IMG/VR virus record: IMGVR_UViG_3300034190_004471
Coordinates: 1 to 20,635 of that record
From: a virus
DNA length: 20,635 bases
Direction: 5' to 3' (one strand)
Under the pieces are notes generated by a model that was given only the letters and a program-made list of their open reading frames with translations, searched no databases and was not told the origin of the DNA. How positions within the stretch are numbered: position 1 is the stretch's first letter; each line of letters opens with the position of its first letter. The position numbers and the translations under genes are program-made. Below, one piece after another: positions 901 to 19,193 of this stretch.

Positions 901-1657
901 TTTTAATTCTCTCTTCTATAGAAGTTTTTAAATTTACTTTACTTGGAATAGGGTTATCATAATAATCATCATCCCAAATTACGCTTATATTATATGATAT
1001 ACTGCGCCGCTCACCTTCGCCTCTAAAAGGATAAACAACATGATTTAGCCACAAAGGAAATAAATAAAAAACTCCAACTTCTGGAACTACATATTCTGTC
1101 TGTGGAAACTTAAATACAACTCTATCTCTATTTCCTACATCACCCCATACTAGCGAAGTTATCCCGTCCATTGCACCTTGTGCGCCATAAATTGACTCTG
1201 GTGAGAGGTGTTCCCTATCAATAATTTGATCTGGTACCTTAGTATGTATAAAACCCGCAAATGAAGAAAAATGTTCTGAACCGTGATCGTGAAGAGGGTT
1301 ATAATCACCTTCATATTGATGTACGGTCCATACATCGTGTACGTCTAGGTGATAAGGAATTGGAGTGCTACCGGTAGTCTCAAAAAAATGATTTATGTAA
1401 ATATTTGCTGCATCTTTCAAAAGTTTTCTAAACTGCTTAAAACGTTTATTCGAGACATCAACCTGTAACTGACTGCCTTTATGTATTTCTCCTACAAGCC
1501 TATCAGCATAAGATGGTGTTTCTGGATCAGCCAACATATCGTCACACATTGCATTAAGGTCTTCAATTATGTTTTCTGTTACTTTACCTTTACCTACAAG
1601 TAGTTGAGGTTTAGGGTAAATATTAAATTCAACTTCTCCGGGTTTTAATTCGGTCAT
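893..1657 (-). CDS. 2OG-Fe(II) oxygenase-like protein in the replication operon
   Basis: A 254-residue protein resembling the putative 2-oxoglutarate/Fe(II) oxygenases common in marine phages. Candidate iron ligands are H123 and H125 (with D124) in NPLHDHGSEH, and H206 in WLNHVVYP. R217/R218 in GERRSISYNI fits the 2OG-binding arginine, and the surrounding strands fit a double-stranded beta-helix core. The substrate cannot be read from sequence; it could be protein, nucleic acid or a small molecule. The ATG overlaps the primase stop as ATGA, and the 3' end overlaps the polymerase start by 8 bases. The gene is therefore embedded between primase and polymerase and is translated with them. No strong Shine-Dalgarno is visible, consistent with coupling. 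Family assignment is fairly confident; its replication role is inferred only from position. Confidence 0.75.
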   Translation of the reverse strand: MTELKPGEVEFNIYPKPQLLVGKGKVTENIIEDLNAMCDDMLADPETPSYADRLVGEIHKGSQLQVDVSNKRFKQFRKLLKDAANIYINHFFETTGSTPIPYHLDVHDVWTVHQYEGDYNPLHDHGSEHFSSFAGFIHTKVPDQIIDREHLSPESIYGAQGAMDGITSLVWGDVGNRDRVVFKFPQTEYVVPEVGVFYLFPLWLNHVVYPFRGEGERRSISYNISVIWDDDYYDNPIPSKVNLKTSIEERIKNG

Positions 1658-2511
1658 CGTAATATTTCTTTTACTTCTTGTTTGTTTAAATCTCCTGGAT
1701 CACGACCAAGAGGCAATTTTATTATTCTTGATTGTATGTTTCTCTTGTCTAACTGATTAGAAATTTTTTCTGCTGCAATAGCACCCGCAGTGTCTGGGTC
1801 CATCATAATGTCAACTTTTGTAACACCAATTATGTCAACTAATTCCAATTTAGTTTTATTAAAATTAGATGCACCAAACAAACATACTGTGTTTTTATAA
1901 CCAAGTTGCCACATATTTAACATGTCAAAAATACCCTCAACAAAGATAAGATGATTTGTATTTTTAATCTTATCTAAAGGATAAAGAATGTTATTAGTTT
2001 TTGCATTTGCAGGTCTACGGTAATACTTTGGTTGGTGATTATTGTCTTTAAACTTTCTACCTTCAATAAATTTAAGTTTACCAAATTGATATACCGGTAT
2101 GCAAATGTAATTTTGTAATTGAAGGTGCTGAGTCGTAAAGGCATTAAATTCCATCATCGTTTTAGCAGAAATACCTTTGAATTGTTGCTTAAAAACATGA
2201 CGCTCAGATGGCAGTTTAATGTCGTCAATTTCAATAATGTGCCTAATTTTATCTTTGAGTTTCTTAATACGGTAAGGTTGTTTACTATCAACAGATAAAC
2301 GAGTTACTTCACCAATACTTTCTAAAAATTTAGACGCACCACCACCAAAACCACAACTCCAACAATGGAATAAATTTTTATCTAAATTATAACTTAAACT
2401 AGGATTAGTATCATTATGCAAACCAGATGTGCAAGATATTAATATCTCACTTGGATTATTAGTTTTTTTATATTCAATACCCCGTGTATTAAGTAATTCA
2501 ATTAATTCCAT
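1654..2511 (-). CDS. DnaG-type DNA primase, short phage form
   Basis: This 285-residue protein makes RNA primers for lagging-strand synthesis. An N-terminal CHC2-type zinc ribbon is formed by C27, H32, C50 and C53 (HCWSCGFGG). A TOPRIM domain follows: E192 in FVEGIFD and D238-P-D240 in MMDPDTAG supply the metal-binding acidic residues, and RDPGDLN at about 270-276 is the usual trailing motif. At 285 residues it is about half the length of bacterial DnaG and has no room for the C-terminal helicase-binding domain, so it must contact the helicase differently. Its ATG overlaps the helicase stop by one base (TAATG) and its own stop overlaps the next gene as ATGA. The helicase-primase-oxygenase-polymerase order indicates one operon. 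Confidence 0.9.
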   Translation of the reverse strand: MELIELLNTRGIEYKKTNNPSEILISCTSGLHNDTNPSLSYNLDKNLFHCWSCGFGGGASKFLESIGEVTRLSVDSKQPYRIKKLKDKIRHIIEIDDIKLPSERHVFKQQFKGISAKTMMEFNAFTTQHLQLQNYICIPVYQFGKLKFIEGRKFKDNNHQPKYYRRPANAKTNNILYPLDKIKNTNHLIFVEGIFDMLNMWQLGYKNTVCLFGASNFNKTKLELVDIIGVTKVDIMMDPDTAGAIAAEKISNQLDKRNIQSRIIKLPLGRDPGDLNKQEVKEILR

Positions 2512-3902
2512 TATACGTCTCTTGAGCCTTCTTTTTCATTATCCGTTCCAAATTTTGTAGCACTGTGTGGTTTTTCATTGATAAGTGCAGATTGATTTGG
2601 GTCAATTTTTACACAACTCCAATCCATCAACACATCAAAACTCATGTGCTTACCATTACGCATTTTTGTTGTGTGAATTGTAATCTTATTTTCAAGCTCT
2701 CTATCATCGCCTTCAGGCGGTGGGAAGAAGTTAAAACTACGATCAGCAGAATCAAGAATACCTTTAGAAAATCTTGCTTCTCCTGTCGCATCAATTTGGT
2801 AGGGAGATACTAATGTAAGATCATATTTACGACTTATACCTTTAAGTGCTTCTGCAATTACTATCTGAGTTTTCCAATCTTTTTGATCATCATGTTTTAC
2901 AATATTAATATAATCTACGACACCCATATTAAAATTAGGATATTTAGAAGAAAACATATTACAATAATGATCAATCCTATTAATAGTCAGTGACTCATCG
3001 TCGATCATAAATAAACGATTATCTTTAAACTCTGGTTTTTCAATTTTAATACGTTGTTCAAATGTTTTAAAATCTTTACTTGCTTCTAATTGTTTAACCA
3101 TTTGTTTTAGATTATCATCAGGTTTATAGAATGTATCAATTTTAGCTTTAGCCATTTGAATTTTTTGACTATTATTTAGTTTATTTCTGAATATATCAAG
3201 AAAGGGTACACCTGAAATAATACTAAGAACTCGATCATAAACTTCTTTATAGCGCATTTCAATAGTAAAAAATGCAACAGTATTACCTTGTAAAAAACGA
3301 TTAAGAGCTAAATTTAGAGATATGATAGACTTACCAGAGCCTCGACGACCGCCAAGTAACACAAGTTCTTGTGTAGCAAATCCGCCATTTATATTGTCAA
3401 ATTCAGCACTTAACCCACTTGGATAAATCTTGAAATCTTCTTCGGAGGGAAAAAATTCTAATTCAGCAACATCATAAAGCTCATCATCATGGGGTATAGC
3501 TTGATTTAATTTTAATAAGTGATTTTGAAATTGATCAACAATTTCTACTTTCTCAAAATCATCTAAGTTATCTACAAATTTATCTAAAAAATGTATTGTC
3601 TCGTCACGAATATAGAAGTCTTGTAATTGGGATACAAGAAATTCATCCGCTATTGTTTCATTGTGATTCTCATTATCAAGAATTTGATTTTCAATGTATT
3701 CTTGTAACCCTATGTCTTTTCTAAGCGCAGTGATTTCATCAGTAGATGGCAAACGCATGTGTGACTTGTAAAAGCTTTTTATCTTATCAAAAAGCACATG
3801 ATTAATGCCAGTAAAATACTGGTTGAGAAGTTTAGAGTATAGGTCGTTACTTTGAGTATCTAATAATCTACGCAAAGTTAATTTTTGTAAATCAATTGCC
3901 AA
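2511..3902 (-). CDS. Replicative DNA helicase, DnaB/gp4-like RecA-fold
   Basis: A 463-residue hexameric 5'-3' helicase candidate. The RecA-like domain carries Walker A GGRRGSGKS (184-192), a putative catalytic glutamate E215 in FFTIEM, Walker B VVDY (328-331), a sensor-like Q369 in SPYQIDATGEAR, and KMRNGK (413-418) where DnaB proteins have an arginine finger. The N-terminal 150 residues are divergent but include PSTDEITAL, compatible with a helical DnaB-like N domain. The start appears to be TTG at 3900-3902, preceded at 6 bases by GGTGA. The next in-frame ATG is at codon 49, which would remove conserved-looking sequence. The gene overlaps the upstream HTH gene by 11 bases and the primase by one base. 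Confidence 0.9.
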   Translation of the reverse strand: MAIDLQKLTLRRLLDTQSNDLYSKLLNQYFTGINHVLFDKIKSFYKSHMRLPSTDEITALRKDIGLQEYIENQILDNENHNETIADEFLVSQLQDFYIRDETIHFLDKFVDNLDDFEKVEIVDQFQNHLLKLNQAIPHDDELYDVAELEFFPSEEDFKIYPSGLSAEFDNINGGFATQELVLLGGRRGSGKSIISLNLALNRFLQGNTVAFFTIEMRYKEVYDRVLSIISGVPFLDIFRNKLNNSQKIQMAKAKIDTFYKPDDNLKQMVKQLEASKDFKTFEQRIKIEKPEFKDNRLFMIDDESLTINRIDHYCNMFSSKYPNFNMGVVDYINIVKHDDQKDWKTQIVIAEALKGISRKYDLTLVSPYQIDATGEARFSKGILDSADRSFNFFPPPEGDDRELENKITIHTTKMRNGKHMSFDVLMDWSCVKIDPNQSALINEKPHSATKFGTDNEKEGSRDV

Positions 3903-4665
3903 TTGTCATCACCGGATAAAGTTTGTGTCTGTTTAATTCTAGAAAGTGCCCATGATCTCCAAGAATGTAGAGGCGATACGCTTCTCTGCCTGTTTCTTCG
4001 ATGATCGATTCAATTTGATTAATTCTATTTTTGATAGCCCACTCCTTCCATTGCGAACCATCATCAAATTCCCAATAGATAGTCCAGTGAACATCTTCTT
4101 TACCTTCGTATTCTTCACCATATATTTTCTTTGCTCTTTGCATTACATGATGTTCTACATATTTGCGACGAGCAGGATTCCTGTGTTCTTCAATCCATTC
4201 TTCGTCAAATACTTCTTTTACTTCTGCATACTCACTAGTATCTGCAATAAATACTTTTTGTCCTACTTTAAACTTTATATCTAAATCTTGTACAACATGT
4301 TCTACTTTTGCCGCCTTTTTCTTGCCACGACTTCTTAAAGGAACATTAAGTTCCATTAAAAACTTTTTGACTCGTTGTGGTGAAATAAAATTACGTTGAG
4401 CAATAGCAGAAAGACCATCACCTTTTAGGTAATCATCTGCCATAGATTTCTTTTCTGTTTCTGAAAACTTTTTAAATCTTGCTTGTGCTTTTAACTGTTT
4501 ATCTCGCTCGATGCGTTTATGAAAATCTTCAATTAGTGTATCGAGTCTTTTAGGGCTGTAAGCTATGCCAACATGGCTACAGACATCTTTTTTGGTTTTG
4601 CCTTTTTTCAGCATCCAAATAGCTTGACGAATTTTTGCTTCAGGGATAGTTGGGGATTTTGCCAT
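3892..4665 (-). CDS. Helix-turn-helix protein at the head of the replication operon
   Basis: A 257-residue protein I cannot assign to a named family. Two helix-turn-helix-like stretches are visible. One is about 10-45 (IRQAIWMLKKGKTKKDVCSH), and a clearer one is about 67-113 (KFSETEKK..., LSAIAQRNFISPQRVKKFL, followed by basic RSRGKKK). The second resembles DNA-binding modules of phage regulators and homing endonucleases. The C-terminal half begins with a short beta-rich stretch (FKVGQKVFIADTSEYAEVKEV) of possible SH3-like character and has several aromatic residues. No nuclease motif is evident. The start is ATG at 4665 with GGAG 7 bases upstream. It lies just behind a strong sigma70-like promoter and overlaps the helicase by 11 bases. 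It could regulate or load replication proteins; function unknown. Confidence 0.7.
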   Translation of the reverse strand: MAKSPTIPEAKIRQAIWMLKKGKTKKDVCSHVGIAYSPKRLDTLIEDFHKRIERDKQLKAQARFKKFSETEKKSMADDYLKGDGLSAIAQRNFISPQRVKKFLMELNVPLRSRGKKKAAKVEHVVQDLDIKFKVGQKVFIADTSEYAEVKEVFDEEWIEEHRNPARRKYVEHHVMQRAKKIYGEEYEGKEDVHWTIYWEFDDGSQWKEWAIKNRINQIESIIEETGREAYRLYILGDHGHFLELNRHKLYPVMTIGN

Positions 4666-4723: not shown

Positions 4724-5029
4724 CTAATGAGTGATAAGATCGTCCTCAACAAAATAAACGTCATTTATAACATTCCTTATTAACCCTGTTTGAGTATATA
4801 TAATAGTAAACTGTTCATTGAAAAACCTATTTGAACGGTACAGTTTTTCTACATACATAGAAGAAATGTAGTTTTCAACTAAACTTTCATATTCTAATTC
4901 ATCTTTTAAAGAATTTGGATAATATGTCTCAATTAGTTTATGAATGTAAGCACGTTTATCATCTAATTGCATACCTAAAATATAATCAATAGTTTCGTCT
5001 TGAAGATCACAAAGAGTTAAATCTGTCAT
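4724..5029 (-). CDS. Small acidic hypothetical protein
   Basis: A 101-residue acidic protein without recognisable motifs, rich in Asp, Glu and Tyr, with alternating predicted helix and strand and no membrane segment. It uses the AT-rich codons of most genes here. Its ATG lies 3 bases beyond the T-run of the intrinsic terminator of the preceding gene. The bases before the ATG are a T-run plus the terminator stem, so there is no Shine-Dalgarno and no room for a promoter of its own. Expression would need terminator read-through or an unusual initiation mode. An internal ATG (codon 20) has no well-spaced ribosome site either. The ORF stops just before the replication promoter. It is probably a real gene because it fills the interval neatly, but this is less sure than for its neighbours. 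Confidence 0.55.
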   Translation of the reverse strand: MTDLTLCDLQDETIDYILGMQLDDKRAYIHKLIETYYPNSLKDELEYESLVENYISSMYVEKLYRSNRFFNEQFTIIYTQTGLIRNVINDVYFVEDDLITH

Positions 5030-5032
5030 AAT

Positions 5033-5070
5033 AAAAAAAAAGGGGATAGATGTTTATCTACCCCCCTTTT
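5033..5070 (-). terminator. Intrinsic terminator after the four-repeat gene
   Basis: On the minus strand an arm GGGGGGTAGAT (5066-5056) faces ATCTATCCCC (5051-5042) across a 4-base loop. This gives a stem of five A/T-rich plus four G-C pairs with one mismatch. It is followed at once by nine T (5041-5033). It begins 18 bases after the stop codon at 5088. On the opposite strand the trailing T-run is only four, so it is directional for minus-strand transcripts. Confidence 0.88.
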
Positions 5071-5087
5071 CCCTTCGCTAGAGTTAA

Positions 5088-5771
5088 TTACTCTGCAACC
5101 GACTTCGGTGTGTAGTCGGCACAAGCAAGACCGCGACGAGTAAGAACCGTCTTGACTCCGCGAACAGTCTTGTCAAAGTGATCCGCGATCTCTTCAACTG
5201 TTTGCTCGAGCATATCCTCAATCCCCTCATAAGGATCGCTCTTCGAAGTCTTCTTGTCTCGCTGTACTGCGCGAAGACCCATGCTAAGAAGTTTGCCACG
5301 AATCGAATTAACAGTGCGGCCAAGAGCTTCTGCAATTTCTTCCAGATATTTCTCGTCACTCACCATTGACTCAATTTGTCCTTCTTCCTCCTCAGAGAAA
5401 GTGCGTTGTGGAGCCTTCTTCTCAGCAGGCTTAACATGAGAAGTCATTTCAAGAGAAAGTGCCTTCCCATTAATCTGACGGGCAGTAAATTTGCCGTCAG
5501 CAAACTCAGCAGCAATTTCGTCTGCCGTATGTACTCCGGAATTTTTTTGCAGAAAATCTGCAAGTGCGTCTGTCTCTTCTGCCGAAAATACAGGAGCTGC
5601 ACCCGGCTTCTTCGGAACGTCATAACCAAGCTTACGTAGCTTAGCCGTAACCGAACGACGCGGAAAACCGAAGTCTTCCATAAGAGTTTCGATGACGCTC
5701 TCTGTAACGCCACTATCGGCTGCTTCATGCATTTCAGCAACCATTTCATCAGTGTATTCAAACTTACTCAT
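5088..5771 (-). CDS. Four-repeat SANT/Myb-HTH-like protein, stand-alone transcription unit
   Basis: A 227-residue, probably DNA-binding protein built from four diverged copies of one helical unit at about residues 4-52, 60-108, 123-168 and 180-217. The shared pattern is an aromatic-Ser/Thr-acidic start (FEYTDE, PVFSAEE, RTFSEEE), then (I/V)xEIAxxF/L (HTADEIAAEF, LEEIAEAL, VEEIADHF), then a basic recognition-like helix ending in KLxxLG-type sequence (SVTAKLRKLGY, SIRGKLLSMGL, GVKTVLTRRGL). This looks like tandem SANT/Myb or HTH modules. The ATG at 5771 has GAGGGGG upstream. The gene is visibly GC-richer than its surroundings: 34 of 60 bases in 5101-5160, against 13 of 60 in 4861-4920. It has its own promoter, 5' hairpin and terminator. 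Recent acquisition, or codon selection for very high expression of an abundant nucleoid-like or regulatory protein, would both fit. The family name is not known to me. Confidence 0.8.
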   Translation of the reverse strand: MSKFEYTDEMVAEMHEAADSGVTESVIETLMEDFGFPRRSVTAKLRKLGYDVPKKPGAAPVFSAEETDALADFLQKNSGVHTADEIAAEFADGKFTARQINGKALSLEMTSHVKPAEKKAPQRTFSEEEEGQIESMVSDEKYLEEIAEALGRTVNSIRGKLLSMGLRAVQRDKKTSKSDPYEGIEDMLEQTVEEIADHFDKTVRGVKTVLTRRGLACADYTPKSVAE

Positions 5772-5810
5772 TGGATTAAATCCCCCTCGTTGATAAATTT
5801 TGAAGTTTGC

Positions 5811-5833
5811 TCAAGAAGCTGTTGTCTTCTTGA
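5811..5833 (-). repeat. 5'-UTR hairpin of the four-repeat gene
   Basis: Perfect 8-bp inverted repeat TCAAGAAG (5811-5818) and CTTCTTGA (5826-5833) with a 7-base loop. The expected transcription start is about 5837, so the RNA would begin with this hairpin within a few bases of its 5' end, a position known to stabilise messages. No T-run follows, so it is not a terminator. As DNA it could equally be an operator. Confidence 0.65.
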
Positions 5834-5843
5834 CTATGTAATG

Positions 5844-5872
5844 ATTATAAGAGAAAATTGTATTAAAAGCAA
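5844..5872 (-). promoter_or_regulatory. Sigma70-like promoter of the four-repeat gene
   Basis: On the minus strand, TTGCTT (5872-5867) and a perfect TATAAT (5849-5844) are 17 bases apart. This gives a leader of about 66 bases before the ATG at 5771. It lies in the 146-base gap after the ligase gene. The -35 is preceded by ATC, making ATCTTGCT, close to the TTCTTGCT of the other two promoters. Confidence 0.8.
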
Positions 5873-5893
5873 GATTAATTTTGCGGAATCTTG
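5870..5893. repeat. Inverted repeat overlapping the -35 box; candidate operator
   Basis: CAAGATT (5870-5876) and AATCTTG (5887-5893) form a perfect 7-bp inverted repeat with a 10-base spacer, so the half-site centres are 17 bases apart. The left half overlaps the -35 hexamer of the promoter at 5844-5872. A repressor bound here would block polymerase. It might also act as a weak hairpin ending ligase transcripts, since CTTTT follows on the minus strand. Confidence 0.45.
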
Positions 5894-5917: not shown

Positions 5918-7648
5918 TTAAAATTCGCCGTTTAAGATACTGGATTTATTTTTCCAATAGTCTAAAATAATAACTTTTTGTTTCTGCGCTTTTTTGTACT
6001 TAGAGCTAGTAGAGTCTCCGCCTGAGATTAACGCATAGCAATCTTTTGTAATTGTAGAAGCTATCGCAAATCCGTATTGTTGAAGATGTTCTCCTAATTG
6101 TGATCGAGTCATATCCATCTTGCCAGTGATACAAATCTTTCGTTTAGGAGTCTGTAGTACTTCATCTACAGATAAATCTTCTTCTAGTTGAAGTGGAAGT
6201 GTTTCCACCCATTCTTCATTCTCATCCAACCATGTGAGAATGCTATCAATCGTGCTTGGACCCACACCTTTAATTTCGGTAATTTCAATATCTCGCAAAT
6301 TATTAAATCTTGAAATGTGGCGGGTAATGAGTTTTGCTGCTCGTTTTCCAACTCCTGGAATACCAAGAGCAGCAAGTACGAGTGAATAGGGCTTAGTTTT
6401 AGTTCGCTCAATTTCTTCTTCAATTTTTGCCCCGTTTGCACCTAGTATGTCCCAGTTAGGATCATCAAATAAATCAACTGGGTGCATTAGTTTTAATTTC
6501 CTTATACTTGCTGGGCCAAGTCCTTTGATGTCTAATGTTTTTATAAAGTGTTCCAAAACTTTAGTAGAGTTCGCACGATCTGAGAAAAGTTTTGGTCCGA
6601 CTCGTTTTAGTTTACAATCAACACTCTCTTCAGCATGTTTCTTAGTAATTTTAAGATTGTGTGGAGAATGTTCAATCACTCGTAAAAATTTAGGTATTAC
6701 GCCACCAGCCCGTTCAATCTCAATACGGTCACCAAAGCCTAAATTATGGCTTTCGATTTGTTCTATGTTGTGAAGAGTAACTCGGGAGATAGTGGCGTCG
6801 TCTAGTACTACAGGATCAACTACGCCAGTAGGAGCAACAACTCCAGTCCGGCCAACAGTCCATAGCACTTCTTTTAGTGTAGTAATTGCAGTAATAGTTT
6901 CTCTACTTTTTAGTGCTACAGCAAATCGAGGATATTTTGAAGTGTATCCTAAATTTTGACACTTTTGCCAATCATTACAACGATATACTACACCGTCACA
7001 AGGATATTCCCATGCAGCATCATCTAATACTGTAAAGAATCCCATGTTCTGTAGAATATCAATCTTATTAGTATAATTCATTGTAAACGAAAGAATATCG
7101 TGTGCAATAAATTTAATGTTTCTTTCTTTAAACTCTTGTGGTGATTTTAAGCCTAACGCGCCACTAACATAATTGCGAAAGTTTTCAACATCGTTGTCTG
7201 TGACACATTCGCCATTTATTACGACTTGCGCGTGAATAGTAGAGATTTTCTGAGGGATGTTGGTAATTTCTCGGACGAGTTCTGTAACATCATCTCCTCG
7301 ATCTCCATTCCCTCTAGTGAGCGCCAAATGTAATTTTCCATTCTTATAAATGACTGTAAGATTTGTCCCATCAATTTTTGGGGTTCTAATATCCATCCAC
7401 TCATCTAATTCGTCCTTTTCATATATTTTTCTTAGCGAATAAAGGGTATAAGGGTGACTTACCTTACCAGCAGCACCACCTACTTTTAATGTTGGGGAAT
7501 CAGAGTCTCGCCAACCTTGTGCTTTTTCCATTGATTCAAGCTTATCATAGGCTTGATCCCACTCTGCATCGGAGATGCTTGGCGTGGATAGGTCATAGTA
7601 TTTATGGGAATGTTCAAGAACGAAGTTCTTTAATTGGGGATAGTTCAT
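5918..7648 (-). CDS. ligA: NAD-dependent DNA ligase without zinc finger
   Basis: A 576-residue LigA-type ligase that seals nicks using NAD+. Domains in order: Ia NMN-binding helices (HKYYDLSTPSISDAEWD, 16-31); adenylation domain with the AMP-accepting lysine K91 in KIDG, TRGNGDRGDDVT (111-122) and YTSKYPRFAVALK (235-247); OB fold (VGRTGVVAPTG, 265-275; ERAGGVIPK, 312-320); helix-hairpin-helix repeats (DIKGLGP, GIPGVGKR, IKGVGPS); and a BRCT domain (about 502-565). The four-cysteine zinc finger that should lie between OB fold and HhH is gone: residues 335-370 hold only C345. The protein is about 100 residues shorter than bacterial LigA. The ATG at 7648 has AAGGA 9 bases upstream and its own candidate promoter. 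It would serve Okazaki-fragment joining. Confidence 0.95.
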   Translation of the reverse strand: MNYPQLKNFVLEHSHKYYDLSTPSISDAEWDQAYDKLESMEKAQGWRDSDSPTLKVGGAAGKVSHPYTLYSLRKIYEKDELDEWMDIRTPKIDGTNLTVIYKNGKLHLALTRGNGDRGDDVTELVREITNIPQKISTIHAQVVINGECVTDNDVENFRNYVSGALGLKSPQEFKERNIKFIAHDILSFTMNYTNKIDILQNMGFFTVLDDAAWEYPCDGVVYRCNDWQKCQNLGYTSKYPRFAVALKSRETITAITTLKEVLWTVGRTGVVAPTGVVDPVVLDDATISRVTLHNIEQIESHNLGFGDRIEIERAGGVIPKFLRVIEHSPHNLKITKKHAEESVDCKLKRVGPKLFSDRANSTKVLEHFIKTLDIKGLGPASIRKLKLMHPVDLFDDPNWDILGANGAKIEEEIERTKTKPYSLVLAALGIPGVGKRAAKLITRHISRFNNLRDIEITEIKGVGPSTIDSILTWLDENEEWVETLPLQLEEDLSVDEVLQTPKRKICITGKMDMTRSQLGEHLQQYGFAIASTITKDCYALISGGDSTSSKYKKAQKQKVIILDYWKNKSSILNGEF

Positions 7649-8291: not shown

Positions 8292-8775
8292 GTTCTTTAA
8301 TTAAATCCTCTAAATACCATTTGGCTTTCATTAAATCTTGTATTTGAAGGTTAACGTCATCTTTATTTTTTAAATTGTAACGAGAAACATACTTAATCAC
8401 ATTAGCTTGGTTCCAATTCATGTCCCAAGATTTTATGTATTTTGTAGTTTCAATACCTTTATTATAATGTGGAGGGTGATTTACAGCGTCAGCCATACTT
8501 GACTGTTCACTCTGTATAGCAGATTTTTCGCTCATTGCAGCAGCTCCGATGGGGCCTCGCACTTTTGATTTTGCTACGGGTTTACCCCATAAGTCAGCAG
8601 GAACATCTTCTCTTACCGGGTATACTTTGCCAGTAACCGTAGTAGTTCCTGTAGTTATCATTGTTCCTCCTCCTGCTCCTCTACGAGCCATATAATCCCA
8701 GTATGGTTCTCTTACACTTGTTTTCATGCTAAAATTTGCTTCTTTACCATACATGTAGTTTGCTTTAGTTGACAT
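8269..8775 (-). CDS. DUF3310 protein with N-terminal extension
   Basis: A 168-residue protein. Residues 97-160 match the DUF3310 pattern found in many phages: AVNHPPHYNKG (97-107), NVIKYVSRYNLKN (125-137) and DLMKAKWYLEDLI (147-159). DUF3310 has no firmly established function. The preceding 95 residues are unusual: a Gly/Thr-rich low-complexity stretch (RRGAGGGTMITTGTTTVTG, 31-49), then a Ser/Gln-rich linker, with no recognisable domain. The ATG at 8775 has AAGGA 9 bases upstream. The gene overlaps its neighbours by 11 and 23 bases. Domain identity is confident, function unknown. Confidence 0.8.
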   Translation of the reverse strand: MSTKANYMYGKEANFSMKTSVREPYWDYMARRGAGGGTMITTGTTTVTGKVYPVREDVPADLWGKPVAKSKVRGPIGAAAMSEKSAIQSEQSSMADAVNHPPHYNKGIETTKYIKSWDMNWNQANVIKYVSRYNLKNKDDVNLQIQDLMKAKWYLEDLIKELEKQNPY

Positions 8776-9079
8776 TTAGTTTATCCTTAATCGCTGTTAA
8801 CAATTTATACAAATTTTCTTTTTTATTTAAATTTGTCCCTTCAACTTGTATTTCTAACAAGTCTTCCAAATCACGAAGCATAACTTTTACTGTTTGTCCT
8901 TTTTCTACTTCGTTAGTCTCTGGTTTTTCATAAATTTTTAACTGAACTAATTTACTGATAACACTACGATACCCTTTTCCGAAGTGTTTGGCAAGTTCAT
9001 GTACATCTTTTATATTATCTTTAGTATATAATGAAATTAATTCATTTTCCTGATCATCGCTCCAAGCTTTAACGCTCAT
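8765..9079 (-). CDS. Single SANT/Myb-HTH-like small protein
   Basis: I take the ATG at 9079 as start (104 residues): GGAG lies 6 bases upstream, whereas the longer reading frame would need a TTG at 9097. Residues 5-50 (AWSDDQENELISLY..., VHELAKHFGKGYRSVISKLVQL) match the repeated unit of the 227-residue protein at 5088-5771, including the acidic helix after an aromatic residue and the basic third helix. The C-terminal half is a helical, Leu-rich segment (VMLRDLEDLLEIQ) that might mediate dimerisation. The start overlaps the PC4-like gene by 11 bases. Likely DNA-binding; partner and role unknown. Confidence 0.72.
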   Translation of the reverse strand: MSVKAWSDDQENELISLYTKDNIKDVHELAKHFGKGYRSVISKLVQLKIYEKPETNEVEKGQTVKVMLRDLEDLLEIQVEGTNLNKKENLYKLLTAIKDKLNVN

Positions 9080-9347
9080 TATTTTCTCCAAACTCAAATT
9101 GAATTTGAGTAGAATGCACGAATCTTTTACTAACTTCTTCCGCTGCTTCTTCTAGGAGAGGTAATAGAGAGCAAACTTCATCTGCAGGTAGTGCAAAACC
9201 ACTCTTTGTCGGAAACCACTGTCCTGTGTCACCGTCCATTGCGTATTCTCTGATATGTAAGTATAAATTTTCTCTGAACTCGTTAACAGTTACTTTGACA
9301 GCGTTTCCATTATTTTTATGAAACGCAGTTCCATAGTCTTTATTCAT
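9069..9347 (-). CDS. PC4-like ssDNA-binding transcriptional coactivator protein
   Basis: A 92-residue protein whose residues 16-75 fit the PC4/p15 (Sub1) fold: VKVTVNEFRENLYLHIREY, then a turn with GQWFPTKSGFALP, then a C-terminal helix (EVCSLLPLLEEAAEEV). The (D/H)IREY and PTK-G-(I/F)-(S/A)-L blocks are the family hallmarks. PC4 proteins dimerise and bind single-stranded DNA; phage and bacterial members are known. The gene's ATG overlaps the preceding stop by one base (TAATG). No clear Shine-Dalgarno is seen, so coupling is likely. It neighbours another putative DNA-binding gene (8765-9079), suggesting a replication or transcription role. Confidence 0.82.
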   Translation of the reverse strand: MNKDYGTAFHKNNGNAVKVTVNEFRENLYLHIREYAMDGDTGQWFPTKSGFALPADEVCSLLPLLEEAAEEVSKRFVHSTQIQFEFGENNER

Positions 9348-9544
9348 TATTTTGTTTCAACTGTTGAGTCTGTTTCAGTAACAACTATAGTTGTCTTTTC
9401 TACTTTAGAGGAACTAGAATTAATACTTTTCCACCTATTGACGGCTTCATTAATTGCGGCACCACTATTTCCATTTACTTTTAAATATTGTACTAAATCA
9501 CCTTCTAAATTAAATATTTTTAATTTATCATCACTGATTTTCAT
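9347..9544 (-). CDS. Small hypothetical protein
   Basis: A 65-residue protein with no recognised family. An N-terminal stretch (KLKIFNLEGDLVQYLKV) looks like two short strands, followed by one helix (GAAINEAVNRWKSI) and a Ser/Thr/Val-rich tail. The ATG at 9544 is preceded by a strong AAGGAG at 7 bases. It overlaps the upstream gene by 14 bases and the PC4-like gene by one, which supports it as a real gene. A perfect 14-bp palindrome (9381-9394) lies inside it but is within chance expectation. Confidence 0.65.
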   Translation of the reverse strand: MKISDDKLKIFNLEGDLVQYLKVNGNSGAAINEAVNRWKSINSSSSKVEKTTIVVTETDSTVETK

Positions 9545-10889
9545 TTAAGTACTCCTTAAGTGTCCCGCCTTCAACAGGACGATTTAAATAATCTTTACCC
9601 ATAATGTATAAGTTATCATTCTTATCATTTAATTGTTGAATCCAATCATTATAACAGTTTTTAACCCCTTGTAAACCTCTTAAATAATGCGCATTAACAG
9701 TATGAAATGCATTACTCCACCATATTACTTGAGTGCCTTTATTAGAAATTTTATTAGTTAACTTTTCTGGATTTTCGCAAATATCACAATGAACATATGT
9801 ATGTTCAAGTGTTTTATAATCTTGCCAATGATTTTTGATAATCTTTTCTGAACCCCAATAGTTTAACTCCCTTAACCATAAATCTTCTGGAGTTTCATTT
9901 TCTGTTCTAGTTCCCGCAGTTTCATTTATGGAATATTTTGATTTTGCCCACTGAATAAAATGTGGATAATCCTGCCCATCCCAATGTTTTAATAACATGC
10001 GTTTATATGCTAAGGCTTGTTTACTATAATCATAATAAGTAATTTTAGTAGTGTTTTTAAATCCAAAACGATTTAAAATAAAGTTAGGTTTAAAATCAGC
10101 GGCTACCGAATAAAGGTGATCTATAGGTTCGACTAATTGAACATATTTTAAATCTTGATACCCTTCTGTATTCCATAGAAATACGCAAGTAGGAGCGTAT
10201 GTAACTATGTTATTAATCCAGTATAATTGTCTATTTAATTCTTCTGCACTTTTATTTGGGTATACGTACTGCTTTTGTTCTCGTATTTTAGGATGAAAAT
10301 TATACACAGTTAATCCATTTTTTAAGCTTTTATTAATAAAATTCCAACCATCTACAAGAGGTGTGCATACTAGGGTTTCATCTGTTGGTTTAAGTGTTAG
10401 AGGAGTATAATCGTCGTGTATATTGTGTACACTTCTAATTGCTTTAGTAATGTTTACAGATTCTTTTTGATTTTTATTTCCATATATGGGTTTATCAAAT
10501 TTTTTATAATAGTCTAAATTTACTAATAAACATTGCTTATGAAGTCCATAATACCCGTCACCATTTGGATGTGCAGAATTTGGATTTTGTTTATCCATTA
10601 TATGTCCTGTAATAAAAAAATTATGCGAATCCATCCATTTTTCTAATAAATTAAAAAAATGCGCTTCTTTTATTAAATGTCCTACACAGTGAATAATGCA
10701 GTATTTTTTATTTTCTTCTAATGCTTTATCTAAGATTTGATTAACAGAAGTTCCGGAGAGAATTTTACCGAAATACTTAAATCTTGTAAAAAATTCAGTT
10801 AATTCTTTTGATTTTTGTGCTGCTGTGGGATTTGGAATTACAGAGGAATCATCAAGTATTCCTACTATATAATTTTTATTTATCCCCAT
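9531..10889 (-). CDS. Unidentified 452-residue protein, possible sugar-modifying enzyme
   Basis: I cannot name this family. I choose ATG 10889 over the in-frame TTG at 10910 because it gives a shorter overlap (14 bases) with the preceding gene and starts directly at MGINKNYIVGILDD. The N-terminal 150 residues have alternating strand and helix with CIIHCVGHLIKEAHF and FFITGHIMDKQ, then GDGYYGLHKQCLLVNLDYY, faintly like nucleotide-sugar GT-A enzymes. The C-terminal 120 residues (YVHCDICENPEKL, VIWWSNAFHTVNAHYL) resemble the second half of a Rossmann methyltransferase-like domain, but no glycine-rich SAM loop is clear. It is highly aromatic and asparagine-rich. It lies between the oxygenase and small DNA-binding genes, at the tail of the sugar cluster. 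Confidence 0.6.
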   Translation of the reverse strand: MGINKNYIVGILDDSSVIPNPTAAQKSKELTEFFTRFKYFGKILSGTSVNQILDKALEENKKYCIIHCVGHLIKEAHFFNLLEKWMDSHNFFITGHIMDKQNPNSAHPNGDGYYGLHKQCLLVNLDYYKKFDKPIYGNKNQKESVNITKAIRSVHNIHDDYTPLTLKPTDETLVCTPLVDGWNFINKSLKNGLTVYNFHPKIREQKQYVYPNKSAEELNRQLYWINNIVTYAPTCVFLWNTEGYQDLKYVQLVEPIDHLYSVAADFKPNFILNRFGFKNTTKITYYDYSKQALAYKRMLLKHWDGQDYPHFIQWAKSKYSINETAGTRTENETPEDLWLRELNYWGSEKIIKNHWQDYKTLEHTYVHCDICENPEKLTNKISNKGTQVIWWSNAFHTVNAHYLRGLQGVKNCYNDWIQQLNDKNDNLYIMGKDYLNRPVEGGTLKEYLNENQ

Positions 10890-11514
10890 TTTTCTCGTAA
10901 CTGTTCTCAACTAGTTTTTTCCATTTACTATTAGATTTATAATTTCCATGTATTATAATATGATATCTATCTTCGTTACTTTTGTTATAATAAGCATGAA
11001 TATTGCCTACATCAAGAAGATAAGCCTCTCCTGCTTTAAACGGGACAGTTCCGTGATTCGTCATTTTCATTACACACCCTTTAGGGTGATTTAATGCAAT
11101 ATTTACAGGAGATAATACGTGTTTATCCATATCAGTATGTGGTGCTATAAAACCCCCAGGCTCTAATAACATAAACCGCACACGATAATAAATATCACAA
11201 GGATAAACTTCTGTTAACCATTTAGTAGTTTCGTAACATAAATTAGAGAGTTTAGTCCATCTATACGGAGTTTTATCATTAGATTTATATCCATATGAAG
11301 TAAAATGATTAGTATGAGTAGGAGAAATACCATGAAGACATAAACTAGACCAACCAGCATGTTTATATCCATGTATCGTATCTTCTGCTCGATGTTTAAC
11401 AAAAAGATGTTTGTAAGATTTAGCTTCCTGTAACATTTTTTCATGTGGAAACTCTATATCTAATTTTAACCAAGGAAGGTTACTTTCTGTTAAGATCCAT
11501 TTAAAATTAGACAT
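10876..11514 (-). CDS. Aspartyl/asparaginyl beta-hydroxylase-like 2OG-Fe(II) dioxygenase
   Basis: With the ATG at 11514 this is a 212-residue protein. The frame extends upstream to a GTG at 11556, but that would put 50 bases inside the Fe-S gene. The double-stranded beta-helix core is visible: FMLLEPGGFIAPHTDMDK supplies H126 and D128 of the HxD facial triad, NIHAYYNKSNEDRYHIIIHG supplies H173 and the 2OG-binding R183, and the intervening LSPVNIALNHPKGCVMKM and AGEAYLLDVGN strands match the AspH family. Substrate unknown; it may hydroxylate a host or virion protein. The start overlaps the Fe-S carrier gene by 8 bases, an interesting pairing of two iron-related proteins. Confidence 0.82.
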   Translation of the reverse strand: MSNFKWILTESNLPWLKLDIEFPHEKMLQEAKSYKHLFVKHRAEDTIHGYKHAGWSSLCLHGISPTHTNHFTSYGYKSNDKTPYRWTKLSNLCYETTKWLTEVYPCDIYYRVRFMLLEPGGFIAPHTDMDKHVLSPVNIALNHPKGCVMKMTNHGTVPFKAGEAYLLDVGNIHAYYNKSNEDRYHIIIHGNYKSNSKWKKLVENSYEKNGDK

Positions 11515-11941
11515 CCCAAACATCGGGGTCAAAACTAAAGCTAGTACCGCACCCACAACTTTGTGCTGCCCCAGGATTATCTACAACTAATGATTTTCCA
11601 AATCCATTTTGTGTTAAAGTTATAGTAGAGCCGTATAAATATTTTAAACTAACAGAATCAATGACAGCTTTAGGAGCTTCACAAAAAACAATGTCATCCT
11701 CTTTTATTTCTGTATCTTCATCCATTAAATAGTTAAAACCGGAACATCCGCCCCCAGAAACACCAAATCTAAAAAAAGAATTTTCTTGTTCTAAATTGTC
11801 CTGAATAAAAATTTTTGCTTTGTTTGTGAGTTTTGGTAGATTTCCATGAACTTCTTCATTAATTGTAGGCGGGTGAAAATGAAAGTCTTTTAAAATTTTT
11901 TCTTCAAGAGAGTCTGTTTGGTTTTGTACATTCTGAGACAT
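11507..11941 (-). CDS. A-type Fe-S cluster carrier, IscA/HesB-like
   Basis: A 144-residue protein with all three cysteines of the A-type carrier family: C66 in SGGGCSGFNY and C129/C131 in SCGCGTSF, 63 residues apart as in IscA. It would bind and pass on iron or Fe-S clusters. The core spans about residues 38-137. The first 37 residues (MSQNVQNQTDSLEEK...) are an extension containing HFHPP. Such genes are known auxiliary genes in marine phages. The start is set by a near-perfect AGGAGG 9 bases upstream, the strongest ribosome site in the neighbourhood. The gene overlaps the GT4 gene by 38 bases and the AspH-like oxygenase by 8. Confidence 0.92.
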   Translation of the reverse strand: MSQNVQNQTDSLEEKILKDFHFHPPTINEEVHGNLPKLTNKAKIFIQDNLEQENSFFRFGVSGGGCSGFNYLMDEDTEIKEDDIVFCEAPKAVIDSVSLKYLYGSTITLTQNGFGKSLVVDNPGAAQSCGCGTSFSFDPDVWDV

Positions 11942-13067
11942 TTTTTAATACCTCCTCATATTTTTTACACACATTTTCCCAAGTATTTTCTAATTTAACA
12001 TTTTTAATGTCGTCTATCAATTTATTTTTTTGATGATGGTGATAGATTCCCGCAAGTTTGTGCTTAACATCTTCTGTATTAGGTTCGTGCGCAAAAGTAT
12101 GAGTGCTCATCATGGTTGTTGAATCGCCCGGTTTTAGGGCAAAATATTGTTGATCAGTTAAGTTTATAGGAATTGACTCTGTTTGAAATCTAACCCCTAC
12201 ATCTTCTGGTATAAAATCATTATGTGGACCAACGTTTGGTAAAAATGGAAAACATCCGCAAGCTACAGCTTCTTGGATATGCATACCAAAACCTTCAGCT
12301 CTATAAGGGTGTACTAAAAATTTTGAATTTTTATATATACTCGCCATTTCTAAATCAGAGAGTTGATCATCAATGTATAATATTTCACCACATTGAGTTT
12401 TATACTGAAGTTTGATAATTTCATTAAGAAGATTGTTTACCCCATAAATCTGAGGATTATCTTTAATGATAAGAGTGCATTTGTCATATTTTTTAAGTGC
12501 ATCTTTCCACGCATTTAAAAGAATATCAATTCCTTTTCTCCACTGCCCATTGCCGACAAAAACAAAATTGTATCTTGTTGGATCAATTTTATTAGTATAA
12601 GGGGCGACATATTCATGATTAAAAATAGAATCATCATAACCATTGGGCACGGTAACGACTTTTTCAGGATTCATACCGCCAGTAACAAAAACATCTCTTT
12701 CATAGTTAGAAGGCACACAAAGCATATCAGCAAAAGTTTCAAACCTGTATTGCCACTCAAAAAGCATTTTAGGATATTCCCAGGGTTGAATATAAACGAC
12801 TTTAGTATTTTTATCTGTCGGCCAATTCCATATTGGGGGATAAGAATGTCTTAACTGTACATCAATTACTTTTTCTTCTTTATTAGCTAGCTTTTTAATT
12901 AACTTTAAAATATCAATGCTAACACTACAATTAGGATTAGGAGAGTCTAATGGTGTAAGAAAGACATTAAAATCCTTACATTTATTTAAATATAGGGCCA
13001 ATTGTCTGTTAATAAGAGATAAAGAGTGATTATCGTAAAATTTTCCTAGTATTTCAATATTTATCAT
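11904..13067 (-). CDS. Glycosyltransferase family 4
   Basis: A 387-residue GT-B-fold retaining glycosyltransferase. The N-terminal acceptor domain (1-150) ends in VPSNYERDVF and VTVPNGYDDSIF, typical of GT4. The C-terminal donor domain starts with YNFVFVGNGQWRKGIDILLNAW (about 166-187) and contains the EX7E motif E258-GFGMHIQ-E266 in RAEGFGMHIQEAVACG, which binds the nucleotide-sugar donor. The donor and acceptor are not predictable. The ATG has AAGG 7 bases upstream and overlaps the preceding stop as ATGA. It is part of the sugar cluster and overlaps the Fe-S carrier gene at its 3' end by 38 bases. Confidence 0.9.
   Translation of the reverse strand: MINIEILGKFYDNHSLSLINRQLALYLNKCKDFNVFLTPLDSPNPNCSVSIDILKLIKKLANKEEKVIDVQLRHSYPPIWNWPTDKNTKVVYIQPWEYPKMLFEWQYRFETFADMLCVPSNYERDVFVTGGMNPEKVVTVPNGYDDSIFNHEYVAPYTNKIDPTRYNFVFVGNGQWRKGIDILLNAWKDALKKYDKCTLIIKDNPQIYGVNNLLNEIIKLQYKTQCGEILYIDDQLSDLEMASIYKNSKFLVHPYRAEGFGMHIQEAVACGCFPFLPNVGPHNDFIPEDVGVRFQTESIPINLTDQQYFALKPGDSTTMMSTHTFAHEPNTEDVKHKLAGIYHHHQKNKLIDDIKNVKLENTWENVCKKYEEVLKNVSECTKPNRLS
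11951..11956 (-). promoter_or_regulatory. Strong Shine-Dalgarno of the Fe-S carrier gene
   Basis: On the minus strand AGGAGG (forward CCTCCT) is 9 bases from the ATG at 11941, inside the end of the preceding glycosyltransferase gene. Most neighbouring starts have only partial sites, so this gene may be translated at a higher rate within the polycistronic message. Confidence 0.75.
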
Positions 13068-13897
13068 TGGTATGCCTTGTGCGAAAACTGTTCATAATAA
13101 CTTAATAATTGTTCTGTTTTTACAGGATAAAGAGAGGGCCATTGAGCAGAGCCTAGTCCTGACGTTCTAAAATCTTTTAATTCGTGATAATTGTCAAGAG
13201 TGACATCCTTCCACAGACTAAAAAAAGGATCAGTTTCTACTAAATCTGAATGACCGATGTTGTTAATTTTTTTATGTAAATCCTCTTCTTGTCTACAAAG
13301 GCTATAATGAATACAAACAAGAGGACTTAATAGTCTTCCTAATCCTCCAGAACTTTTATCTGTCCATCTTGCATAGGTAAAAGTGCTATCTTTATGAGTT
13401 ATAAAGCCTTGATTCTCTCCAAAATAAGGAGTTGAGTCATGGTCTGCAATTACGAGAGTTGTATCGTCAATCTCCTTGTATGGAGTAGCCCAAGTCATAC
13501 AAATATCATAATTTTTTATATAAGGAAGAGTAAGAGGTAAGTAATCAATAAAAAAATCTTTTGGGGTTAAAAGATTTTCATCAGCATCAATACTGACTAT
13601 GATATCGTGTTCACATTGTTCTTTTAAAAAATTTCTTTCATAGTTATCGTTTTCAATGGCGACTTCACTTTTATGAAAATTTTCTTCAATTACAGAAATT
13701 TTACCTTTAGTATCAATCAATCCTAATTCTTTCCAAAGAGCTTTCTCATCAAAAGAAAATTTATTTCTACTCCAAGTAATTCGATCACTGTCAAGACCAA
13801 GCACAATTTCATCTACATAATCATAGTATGTTTTAATACTATTAGGTAGTAAATGTGCGTCGTAACTAATTAAGCTAATAGCGCTTTTCTTAATCAT
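13064..13897 (-). CDS. GT2-like glycosyltransferase (GT-A fold)
   Basis: A 277-residue protein when started at ATG 13897; the frame extends to a TTG at 13936, which I reject because it lies deep in the preceding gene. SAISLISYDAHLLPNSIKTY resembles the N-terminal strand and helix of GT2 enzymes, and IIVSIDADENLL provides the metal-binding D104-A-D106. The remainder (WATPYKEID, GFITHKDSTFTYARW, LSPLVCIHYS) fits a distal acceptor region. A purine-rich AAAAAGG lies about 12 bases upstream. It overlaps the methyltransferase-like gene by 8 bases and the GT4 gene by 4 (ATGA). Confidence 0.75.
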   Translation of the reverse strand: MIKKSAISLISYDAHLLPNSIKTYYDYVDEIVLGLDSDRITWSRNKFSFDEKALWKELGLIDTKGKISVIEENFHKSEVAIENDNYERNFLKEQCEHDIIVSIDADENLLTPKDFFIDYLPLTLPYIKNYDICMTWATPYKEIDDTTLVIADHDSTPYFGENQGFITHKDSTFTYARWTDKSSGGLGRLLSPLVCIHYSLCRQEEDLHKKINNIGHSDLVETDPFFSLWKDVTLDNYHELKDFRTSGLGSAQWPSLYPVKTEQLLSYYEQFSHKAYQ

Positions 13898-14594
13898 TTT
13901 TTGCAAATGCCTTTTTTCTAAAACCGTATACAGCAATACCGCTGTGATATCCCCATGAATCAGCGTTACCTGATGAAATTTTTTGAAACTTAAACTCTGT
14001 CACTAATCTATCTGAATATTGTTCGACTTTTTCTTCAAGTAATGGGGCAATTTCTTCACTAGAGTAACTACTAAAAATTACTACACTTTGTCTTGAAAAA
14101 GCATTAAAGACTTTTCTAAAAAAGTTATCATAAACTTCTGGGGTAATAGGGTCAATGTCCATAAAAATTACATCAAATTTTGAATGACTTGACCAAGATA
14201 CTTCTTCAAAATCAGATTCAATAATTTTTAAATTGTCGGTGTTTACATCTTCCACAAATTGATATTTTTGAAAAACATCATACATTTGTGACTTCATGTT
14301 TGGCCAACCCTCTTCCATAAAGTATTGTGTTTCTTTTTTATCGTATTTGAAATTTTCTATTCCTACTGCTTGTAAAGTTTTATTACCGTACATTGCAGAG
14401 ATAATTGTAGAACCTCTATATACTCCTAGTTCTAAATAACGTGTATTATCTTTAGAACACACGTTATTTAGAAATGTTTTTAACTTAATAGATGATTGTC
14501 CATATAATTCTCTTTCAGAATCTGTCAGTTTAGATCTTTCTCCGTCTGACATTTTTAAGCACGCGCCTACAAACTCTTCACTCAGTTTTGGCAT
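13890..14594 (-). CDS. Class I SAM-dependent methyltransferase-like protein
   Basis: A 234-residue protein with Rossmann methyltransferase features: motif I RYLELGVYRGSTII (about 52-65), an acidic residue after the second strand in VGIENFKYD, and motif IV-like FDVIFMDIDP (about 139-148) followed by a helix and SVVIFSSY. This arrangement resembles the Methyltransf_24 group often found in surface-polysaccharide clusters. The ATG at 14594 has AGGAG 8 bases upstream. Likely target: a sugar hydroxyl or an acyl group of the cluster product. A perfect 15-bp inverted repeat lies inside the coding sequence (14430-14473). Confidence 0.75.
   Translation of the reverse strand: MPKLSEEFVGACLKMSDGERSKLTDSERELYGQSSIKLKTFLNNVCSKDNTRYLELGVYRGSTIISAMYGNKTLQAVGIENFKYDKKETQYFMEEGWPNMKSQMYDVFQKYQFVEDVNTDNLKIIESDFEEVSWSSHSKFDVIFMDIDPITPEVYDNFFRKVFNAFSRQSVVIFSSYSSEEIAPLLEEKVEQYSDRLVTEFKFQKISSGNADSWGYHSGIAVYGFRKKAFAKND
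14430..14473. repeat. Perfect 15-bp inverted repeat inside methyltransferase gene
   Basis: TTCTAAATAACGTGT (14430-14444) is the exact reverse complement of ACACGTTATTTAGAA (14459-14473); the loop is 14 bases. The stem would form in the mRNA just upstream of the codons for the SAM-binding motif I (the message reads from 14594 downward). No T-run follows on either strand, so it is not an intrinsic terminator. Confidence 0.85.
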
Positions 14595-14811
14595 TTTTTA
14601 TTCTCCTAATAATAAATTGATCAATAAAGTAAAAAGGTATAGAGCTTAATAGTACTAATAAACTACAAAAAATAATTCCAAAGATAAAAGGAATTAATGC
14701 GATTAACCAAATTACTATAAAAATAGAGGTAAAAAACCCTACATCTTTTTTTTCTTTAAAAGATAAAGCTTTTTCTAAATTTTCTTTACTAATAAATACT
14801 TTATCAGTCAT
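14578..14811 (-). CDS. Small two-helix membrane protein
   Basis: A 77-residue protein with a charged N-terminus (about 22 residues), a long hydrophobic stretch from about 24 to 66 that can form two transmembrane helices with a short turn near SLLVLLSSIP, and a basic C-terminal tail (RRIKNAK) likely facing the cytoplasm. The ATG at 14811 has GAGG 6 bases upstream and overlaps the GT2 gene by 8 bases; its 3' end overlaps the methyltransferase gene by 17. It could anchor sugar-cluster enzymes at the inner membrane or be a hydrophobic phage accessory protein. No family recognised. Confidence 0.72.
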   Translation of the reverse strand: MTDKVFISKENLEKALSFKEKKDVGFFTSIFIVIWLIALIPFIFGIIFCSLLVLLSSIPFYFIDQFIIRRIKNAKTE

Positions 14812-15559
14812 TTATAACCTCGTCAAGAGTTTTATAAAATTCAGAGTTTGCCCACTTAGATTTGAGAGTTTCAAGGTTTCTCATCTCAGCTTTTACTTTA
14901 TTAGGGTCTTGAGCTTTAATTTGTTTATTATCTTTACTCTCGTAGTGTAATAATTTAACAGGTATTTGAAAAATTTTAAATCCTGCCTCTCTAGCTCTCA
15001 AACAATAGTCCACATCTCTATTGTAAGTCCATTCATATCCTACAGAAAAATTACCTATTTTATCAAATACCGACCTTCTAATATATATACCACCGAAGGT
15101 AGTCCAAGCAACTTCTCGTACACAGTCAAATTGTCCATCATCTAAAAGTAATTCTTCTTTAAACTTACCGCTTGTTTCAAGATTTAGTCCGCTTCCAAAA
15201 TGATCGGGATTTCCTTCTGTAAATTGGCCGCCCGCAGATTGGATATAGAATAACTCATTTTCATTTTTAGCAGGATAAAGAAGTAAACAACCAAACATAC
15301 CTGCTTCAGAATATTTTTCAACATATTCTAATACCTTATCAAACCACTTATTGTCTTCATCCTCTTCAAGAGGAACCATATCTGCATGCATGATAAAAAT
15401 GTCATCATTAGGAAATTTATTCCATAATTTTTGATACATCATGTCAGAACCTATACGAGCATGATCTTTTTCAAAATAAATAGGGAGATTCCAAAGTTTA
15501 TTTTTAAGTTGATTAATTTCATTATCATTTACATATGGGCAAATTATTTTAACACTCAT
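14804..15559 (-). CDS. GT2-family glycosyltransferase
   Basis: A 251-residue GT-A enzyme. I use the ATG at 15559, which overlaps the preceding TGA as ATGA; an in-frame ATG at 15577 would add six residues and cannot be excluded. MSVKIICPYVNDNEI is the first strand; DIFIMHADMVPLEE (54-67) holds a variant DxD region. The GT2-typical block GGIYIRRSVFDKIG, then YNRDVDYCLRAREAGF and LLHYES, resembles the ED-motif and C-terminal histidine of rhamnosyl-type transferases. Donor and acceptor unknown. It lies between the epimerase and the membrane protein. Confidence 0.85.
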   Translation of the reverse strand: MSVKIICPYVNDNEINQLKNKLWNLPIYFEKDHARIGSDMMYQKLWNKFPNDDIFIMHADMVPLEEDEDNKWFDKVLEYVEKYSEAGMFGCLLLYPAKNENELFYIQSAGGQFTEGNPDHFGSGLNLETSGKFKEELLLDDGQFDCVREVAWTTFGGIYIRRSVFDKIGNFSVGYEWTYNRDVDYCLRAREAGFKIFQIPVKLLHYESKDNKQIKAQDPNKVKAEMRNLETLKSKWANSEFYKTLDEVIND

Positions 15560-18549: not shown

Positions 18550-19193
18550 TGCTTTAACCATGAATTTACTTTTTCGAGGGGTGCTTTAACTAATGAAGTT
18601 AAGCCTTGACACGCATTTTCACAATTTAAAATTGTCCATTCTTCATTTTCTTCAAGAAACTCGTTAATTGCAGGAATCAACTCCATACCGTATTTCATGG
18701 TATCGTGAAAAACTAAATATTTTCTTGATTTATTACCGTGTAATTTAAGTTCTTGTGAAAGTTGATTATAATTATGATCAGTATCAAAAAATATTAAATC
18801 ACAAATTGGTAATTCAGTTTTAAGAGAGTCCTCAATTTTTAACTCCCATTTTATGTTATTTTCCTCAGCTATCTCAAAAACCTCATCAGTATTTACGCCA
18901 TGCTCCTTTGGATGAAATATGTCGTAAGACCAAAGTGTCTTAGCAGAGCCAAGGTAAAGTTTTCTTCTGCTTTCATCCATAAATACCATTCTTTCAGCGC
19001 TGTCTGACATACCGTGTAAAAAAGCCCAAGTAGAAACAACAGATCTAGTCCCTAGTTCCATAATAATATTACAGTCTGATGATAAAGCGCTTAAATAGTC
19101 AAAATGAAACCACATGTCGCTTTCGCGGTCATTGCTGTGATAATCAAATTTTTCTTGTAGTCGTTTACTTGTCATGTGACATGGCCCATTCAT
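18546..19193 (-). CDS. SAM-dependent methyltransferase-like protein, cluster member
   Basis: A 215-residue Rossmann protein: motif I IIMELGTRSVVSTWAFLHG (43-61), DLIFFDTDHNYNQLSQEL at the motif IV position, and KYLVFHDTMKYG after it. This pattern is typical of Methyltransf_24 or cephalosporin-hydroxylase-like proteins in polysaccharide clusters. The start is uncertain: the ATG at 19193 has GAGG only 3 bases upstream, while the ATG at 19175 overlaps the preceding gene less (11 instead of 29 bases) but lacks a Shine-Dalgarno. Like its distant relative at 13890-14594 it may modify a sugar; the two are not near-identical copies. Confidence 0.75.
   Translation of the reverse strand: MNGPCHMTSKRLQEKFDYHSNDRESDMWFHFDYLSALSSDCNIIMELGTRSVVSTWAFLHGMSDSAERMVFMDESRRKLYLGSAKTLWSYDIFHPKEHGVNTDEVFEIAEENNIKWELKIEDSLKTELPICDLIFFDTDHNYNQLSQELKLHGNKSRKYLVFHDTMKYGMELIPAINEFLEENEEWTILNCENACQGLTSLVKAPLEKVNSWLKQ

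Follow-up and report, generated by a model that had tools for sequence, protein, structure and literature searches.

Gene D5 of an uncultured marine T5-like phage has a clade-specific expression arrangement

The 20,635-nucleotide viral sequence IMGVR_UViG_3300034190_004471 from IMG/VR, designated here the window, raised the question of why one of its genes appears as a self-contained unit that is richer in GC than its surroundings. An earlier note on this DNA had suggested two explanations, either that the gene encodes an abundant, independently regulated DNA-binding phage protein with optimised codons or that it is a recently acquired cassette. The gene was identified as D5 of an uncultured marine T5-like phage, an orthologue of T5 gene D5. 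The gene family is already known; what is slightly new is the clade-specific expression arrangement, a modest regulatory variant.

Identity of the gene and its neighbors

The gene (5088..5771, (-)) encodes a protein of 227 amino acids, of which residues 1-221 matched phrog_323 (transcriptional regulator, D5-like) with an E value of 4.3e-32. In tblastn searches, 895 cultured T5-like phage records matched the protein at a coverage of at least 80% and approximately 33-46% identity, and the similarity to D5 of the T5-like phages was full-length. The relatives in IMG/VR comprised at least 80 loci with 71-97% identity, on contigs of up to 107 kb, and aligning the 80 marine loci gives the depth needed to dissect the four DNA-binding modules of the protein.

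The placement of the gene, between an NAD-dependent ligase and the DnaB-like D6 helicase, followed by the primase and polymerase A, is T5-like, and the same order was found in T5 and in Vibrio phage PG07. In the window, D5 and the helicase are separated by an additional gene, orf101, and by a D2-like gene. The T5 early-region genes with counterparts in the window were the polymerase, the primase (1654..2511, (-); E 4e-41), the D6 helicase (2511..3902, (-); E 2.7e-50), D2 (ORF102; the D2-like HTH protein, 3892..4665, (-), 26%, E 1e-11), ORF106, and ligA and ligB, which are fused into one ligase gene (5918..7648, (-); E 1.6e-54 for ligA and 4.5e-15 for ligB). The ligase is split into ligA and ligB in the enterobacterial and Vibrio T5-like phages.

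Two other regions of the window were also recorded. A 110-residue protein with one D5-like HTH unit (8765-9097, (-); phrog_323, E 5.6e-7; 25% to D5) was present in 51 marine loci; it may correspond to T5 D3 or be a D5 paralogue with a single module. A long block (9531-20597, (-)) upstream of the genes for replication carried glycosyltransferase-like, nucleotide-sugar epimerase/aminotransferase-like and IscA-like genes, and much of it was conserved in the record of one relative, L006.

An AlphaFold2 model of D5, calculated from a 45-sequence alignment of T5-like and marine proteins, consisted of four three-helix HTH units, as the earlier note had proposed. The units spanned residues 8-47 (helices 8-17, 24-34 and 38-47), 64-106 (64-76, 83-93 and 97-106), 127-163 (127-138, 143-150 and 154-163) and 184-213 (184-187, 192-199 and 203-213). 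The mean pLDDT of 88.4 and the pTM of 0.40 indicate that the modules are predicted with confidence, while their mutual arrangement is undefined. The columns that showed no variation between T5 and the marine clade were mostly in, or adjoining, the third helix of each unit. The T5 mutations of a phage that escapes retron Kva2 include D5 G53D (PMC13405049) and, by count along the T5 sequence, G53 would fall within the first of these conserved motifs, RSVGSKLR (RSVTAKLR in the window).

Among viral structures, the model matched D5 from a Vibrio phage best (E 5e-19). A fold search of the PDB gave nothing below E 0.001, the weak matches including homeodomain and paired-domain proteins, and the top match of a PDB sequence profile search, 8vd6 ('CAP REPEAT', 7e-4), covered only 28 residues. 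Sigma70 regions 3 and 4 and the Myb/SANT domains are, like the D5 units, small three-helix DNA-binding modules, but the D5 scores were below the Pfam curated cut-offs (PF08281, 19.8 vs 25.7 bits; PF04539, 17.2 vs 25.3; PF00249, 13.5 vs 24.4). The fold is common to all of these, and membership of D5 in either family is not supported.

Promoter, leader hairpin and terminator

The D5 promoter, TTGCTT-17-TATAAT, was located at 5844..5872 (-). It agreed with the consensus at only 9 of 12 positions and was not in the list returned by a generic scan of the window, which gave 87 promoter-like sites compared to the 88.7 expected from shuffling. Since such sites are as common in this AT-rich DNA as chance predicts, the match alone is not evidence for a promoter. 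It counts as evidence because the same core, TTGCTT-17-TATAAT/TAATAT, occupied the same place in all 77 marine loci that had enough upstream sequence (74 with the 17-nt spacer), whereas it occurred in 54 of 5000 random 70-nt windows. Among 50 non-marine T5-like loci, none had a promoter within 150 nt of D5.

The promoter was followed by a hairpin at the 5' terminus of the leader, TCAAGAAG-(7)-CTTCTTGA (5811..5833, (-)), which folded in all 42 distinct marine leaders, with a mean z of -3.35 and z < -2 in 38. The sequence of the arms differed between relatives (TCAAGAAG, TCAAGAG, GTTGAGAAAA, AGAGAG and GTTGAGAG) but the pairing was kept. Changes on both sides were seen in four of the five consensus pairs, a count that is indicative since the alignment of the 3' arm is imperfect. 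The promoter and the leader hairpin were each found only in the marine clade. A Shine-Dalgarno sequence, GAGGGGG (5782..5788, (-)), precedes the ATG of D5 by 10 nt, and a similar G-rich sequence was present in many relatives.

The inverted repeat at the start of the transcript, just 3' of the promoter, could have a different purpose, allowing D5 to restrain its own production by acting on the repeat as an operator or a translational target. The element is both a DNA repeat and an RNA hairpin, so an HTH protein could sit there, and for T5 D5 an interaction with a DNA stem-loop has been predicted (PMC13405049). However, the repeat sequence varied widely among relatives while the D5 recognition helices were nearly invariant. 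That structure was kept rather than sequence speaks more for a hairpin in the RNA than for a fixed operator, and autoregulation of this kind is considered distinctly unlikely.

The unit ends in an intrinsic terminator (5032..5068, (-)) with the stem GGGGGTAGAT/ATCTATCCCC, the loop AAAC and a U-tract; the folded region, 5028-5080(-), had an energy of -23.2 kcal/mol and a z of -5.4. A generic terminator scan, with counts equal to those of shuffled sequences, missed this element, probably because the U-tract can pair with an upstream A-run. A terminator followed D5 in 58 of 60 distinct marine loci, compared to 18 of 600 shuffles and 21 of 600 random windows. It was also present in T5 and PG07 and in 48 of 50 further T5-like loci, a set that includes many near-identical T5 strains. 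The suggestion of the earlier note that the gene has its own promoter, 5' hairpin, ribosome site and terminator was therefore borne out.

In the T5 record (AY587007, locus L003), the corresponding element is a strong intrinsic terminator, GGGGAGGGGGCTATGCTCCTTCCCC-TTTTT, approximately 20-44 bases past the D5 stop, that is unannotated. This element and the start annotated for ORF110 (D6 helicase) overlap, and the true ORF110 start may be further on.

Downstream of the terminator, orf101 (4724..5029, (-)) is a small gene conserved in 76 loci. In the window its start lies directly at the terminator U-tract, and in many relatives the start and the terminator are likewise no more than a few bases apart. 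The translation start is puzzling, as both the window and many relatives have no Shine-Dalgarno sequence there. The promoter pattern preceded orf101 in one of 54 loci and was not seen before the helicase or primase in the relatives, a situation that would fit expression of these genes at a lower level by read-through. A promoter candidate was found at 4713-4685 (-), before the D2-like gene, where a somewhat looser promoter-like pattern was present in 32 of 46 relatives. The earlier description of the rest of the window as polycistronic thus holds for the most part, but a second promoter may interrupt it at this point.

Codon usage and the origin of the base composition

The GC counts that had drawn attention to the gene, 34/60 at 5101-5160 and 13/60 at 4861-4920, were exact, and the excess extended over the full gene (GC 0.474, compared to 0.22-0.38 in the other window genes). 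The GC3 of D5 was 0.379, whereas the codons used in the 26 remaining window genes would predict 0.185 for its amino acids (z = +7.5; the runner-up was the ligase, z = 4.2), so that the full-gene codon usage is distinguishable from that of the rest of the window. A similar deviation was found in a 62.5 kb relative, G003, with an overall GC3 of 0.114 (D5 GC3 0.34, z = 10.6, the top deviation among the 22 most D5-like ORFs listed), and in a 107 kb relative, G001 (z = 4.4).

When D5 was compared with the replication genes, pooled over the marine clade, CGT (0.62 vs 0.29), GGT (0.61 vs 0.47) and ATC (0.39 vs 0.14) were increased, as were TTC, TAC, AAC and CAC, while ATA (0.01 vs 0.30) and AGA (0.13 vs 0.46) were decreased. 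At the fourfold sites, T and C were gained and A and G were lost. The shift looks like the pattern produced by translational selection and not like a foreign base composition.

The local GC and codon contrast is what would be expected if D5 were a GC-rich cassette that had recently arrived from another genome, but the other observations contradict this explanation: 1) the synteny is T5-like, 2) D5 distances track those of the ligase (r 0.89), primase (0.88) and helicase (0.79), values reached in none of 999 Mantel permutations, 3) the fourfold sites gained T, not G, and 4) the GC excess of D5 was present in all 50 of the other T5-like loci. The gene was conserved across the T5-like phages examined and, in every locus compared, D5 was more similar to the window copy than were the ligase, primase, D2-like gene and orf101, and about equal to the helicase. 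If the helicase is set aside, D5 ranks first in conservation among the genes of the replication region that were compared. There is no sign in these sequence comparisons of a recent import, and the acquisition proposed by the earlier note is extremely improbable. The terminator and the base-composition bias are common to the whole T5-like group; the marine clade helps to tell these T5-wide features of D5 expression from those that are clade-specific, the promoter and the 5' hairpin.

A codon comparison with a capsid gene was made in T5, since none was found in the marine clade: eight long marine relatives (including L033, 107 kb) had no match to Phage_capsid, portal or Terminase_6N, and blastp gave no match to T5 virion proteins in the two of the eight that were searched. 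The virion genes of these relatives are either missing from the fragments or highly diverged. With E. coli ribosomal proteins as the reference set, T5 D5 had a CAI of 0.780 and ranked first among the 48 genes that were compared, with the capsid protein (0.721), D11 and D3 behind it. This test, which is independent and has a known host, supports a high expression of D5. The codon bias of PG07 D5 was weak with the E. coli reference, which may suit Vibrio poorly.

Proposed role of D5 and comparison with known systems

Classical T5 genetics identified D5 as a dsDNA-binding protein that is required both for late transcription and for replication to proceed normally. Although D5 ranks first in codon adaptation among the T5 genes tested, how it acts is poorly understood. 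Family models label it a transcription regulator. T5 D5 has been described as a DNA-binding HTH protein (PMC3326045); it is toxic when expressed alone, is predicted to bind a DNA stem-loop and was newly reported as a type IX retron trigger, that of retron Kva2 (PMC13405049).

We consider it likely that window D5 is a four-HTH dsDNA-binding early regulator that links replication to the early-late switch and is arranged for high, separate output. The four modules would bind double-stranded DNA, probably as many copies along the phage genome, and the part played in the switch from early to late transcription would be carried over from the T5 family, on the strength of the family annotation and of T5 genetics. 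Most likely, the protein is abundant and early, and made from a stable monocistronic message. Host sigma70 polymerase would start at the dedicated promoter, the 5'-terminal hairpin would probably shield the message from 5'-end decay, the optimised codons would raise output, and the terminator would end the message before the replisome genes. According to this proposal, D5 would be in excess over the helicase, primase and polymerase because its message ends at the terminator, and these enzymes would depend on read-through or other promoters. These results support the first explanation in the earlier note, an abundant and independently regulated DNA-binding protein with optimised codons, and the protein can now be assigned to the T5 D5 family, the codon usage being what points to abundance.

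Alternatively, D5 could be mainly architectural, a nucleoid-like protein that coats or protects phage DNA, with effects on transcription secondary to coating. The four tandem modules in a predicted flexible arrangement would suit this function, as would T5 codon adaptation above that of the capsid protein. In phiR2-01, D5 was one of the major virion-associated proteins detected, which fits abundance under either interpretation, but it was reported absent from the T5 virion proteins (PMC8624392), and the family annotation is transcription regulation. We regard a mainly architectural function as plausible but on balance not expected. An extension of the regulator proposal is rather doubtful: that in the marine clade D5 acquired its sigma70 promoter and structure-conserved hairpin and, with the ancestral terminator, would dominate the early transcripts and act as a self-limiting switch, the D5:replisome ratio, and with it the timing of the early-to-late transition, being set by leaky termination and by the hairpin or inverted repeat.

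The known proteins most like window D5 are T5 D5 (AY587007 ORF109, T5.118) and the Demerecviridae D5 proteins of phrog_323, with 43% identity over 191 residues. The T5 and window genes have in common the gene order, the terminator directly downstream, the GC excess and the codon optimisation. In contrast, T5 D5 overlaps ligB and has no promoter within 150 nt upstream, whereas marine D5 has its own promoter and 5' hairpin, encodes 227 rather than 255 residues, and comes after a ligase gene that is in one piece. The closest cultured relatives are D5 of the Vibrio phages PG07 and vB_ValS_X1, with 43% identity and the same neighbors, but their ligase is still split, the same search found no adjacent promoter, and the codon bias with the E. 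coli reference is weaker. A functional comparison can also be made with T4 gene 32, which encodes an abundant phage DNA-binding protein from a message with a structured leader. D5 resembles it in having a structured leader and, as the codon usage suggests, in abundance. However, the fold and the substrate (ssDNA) of the gene 32 protein differ, there is no homology, and autoregulation of D5 is only a candidate.
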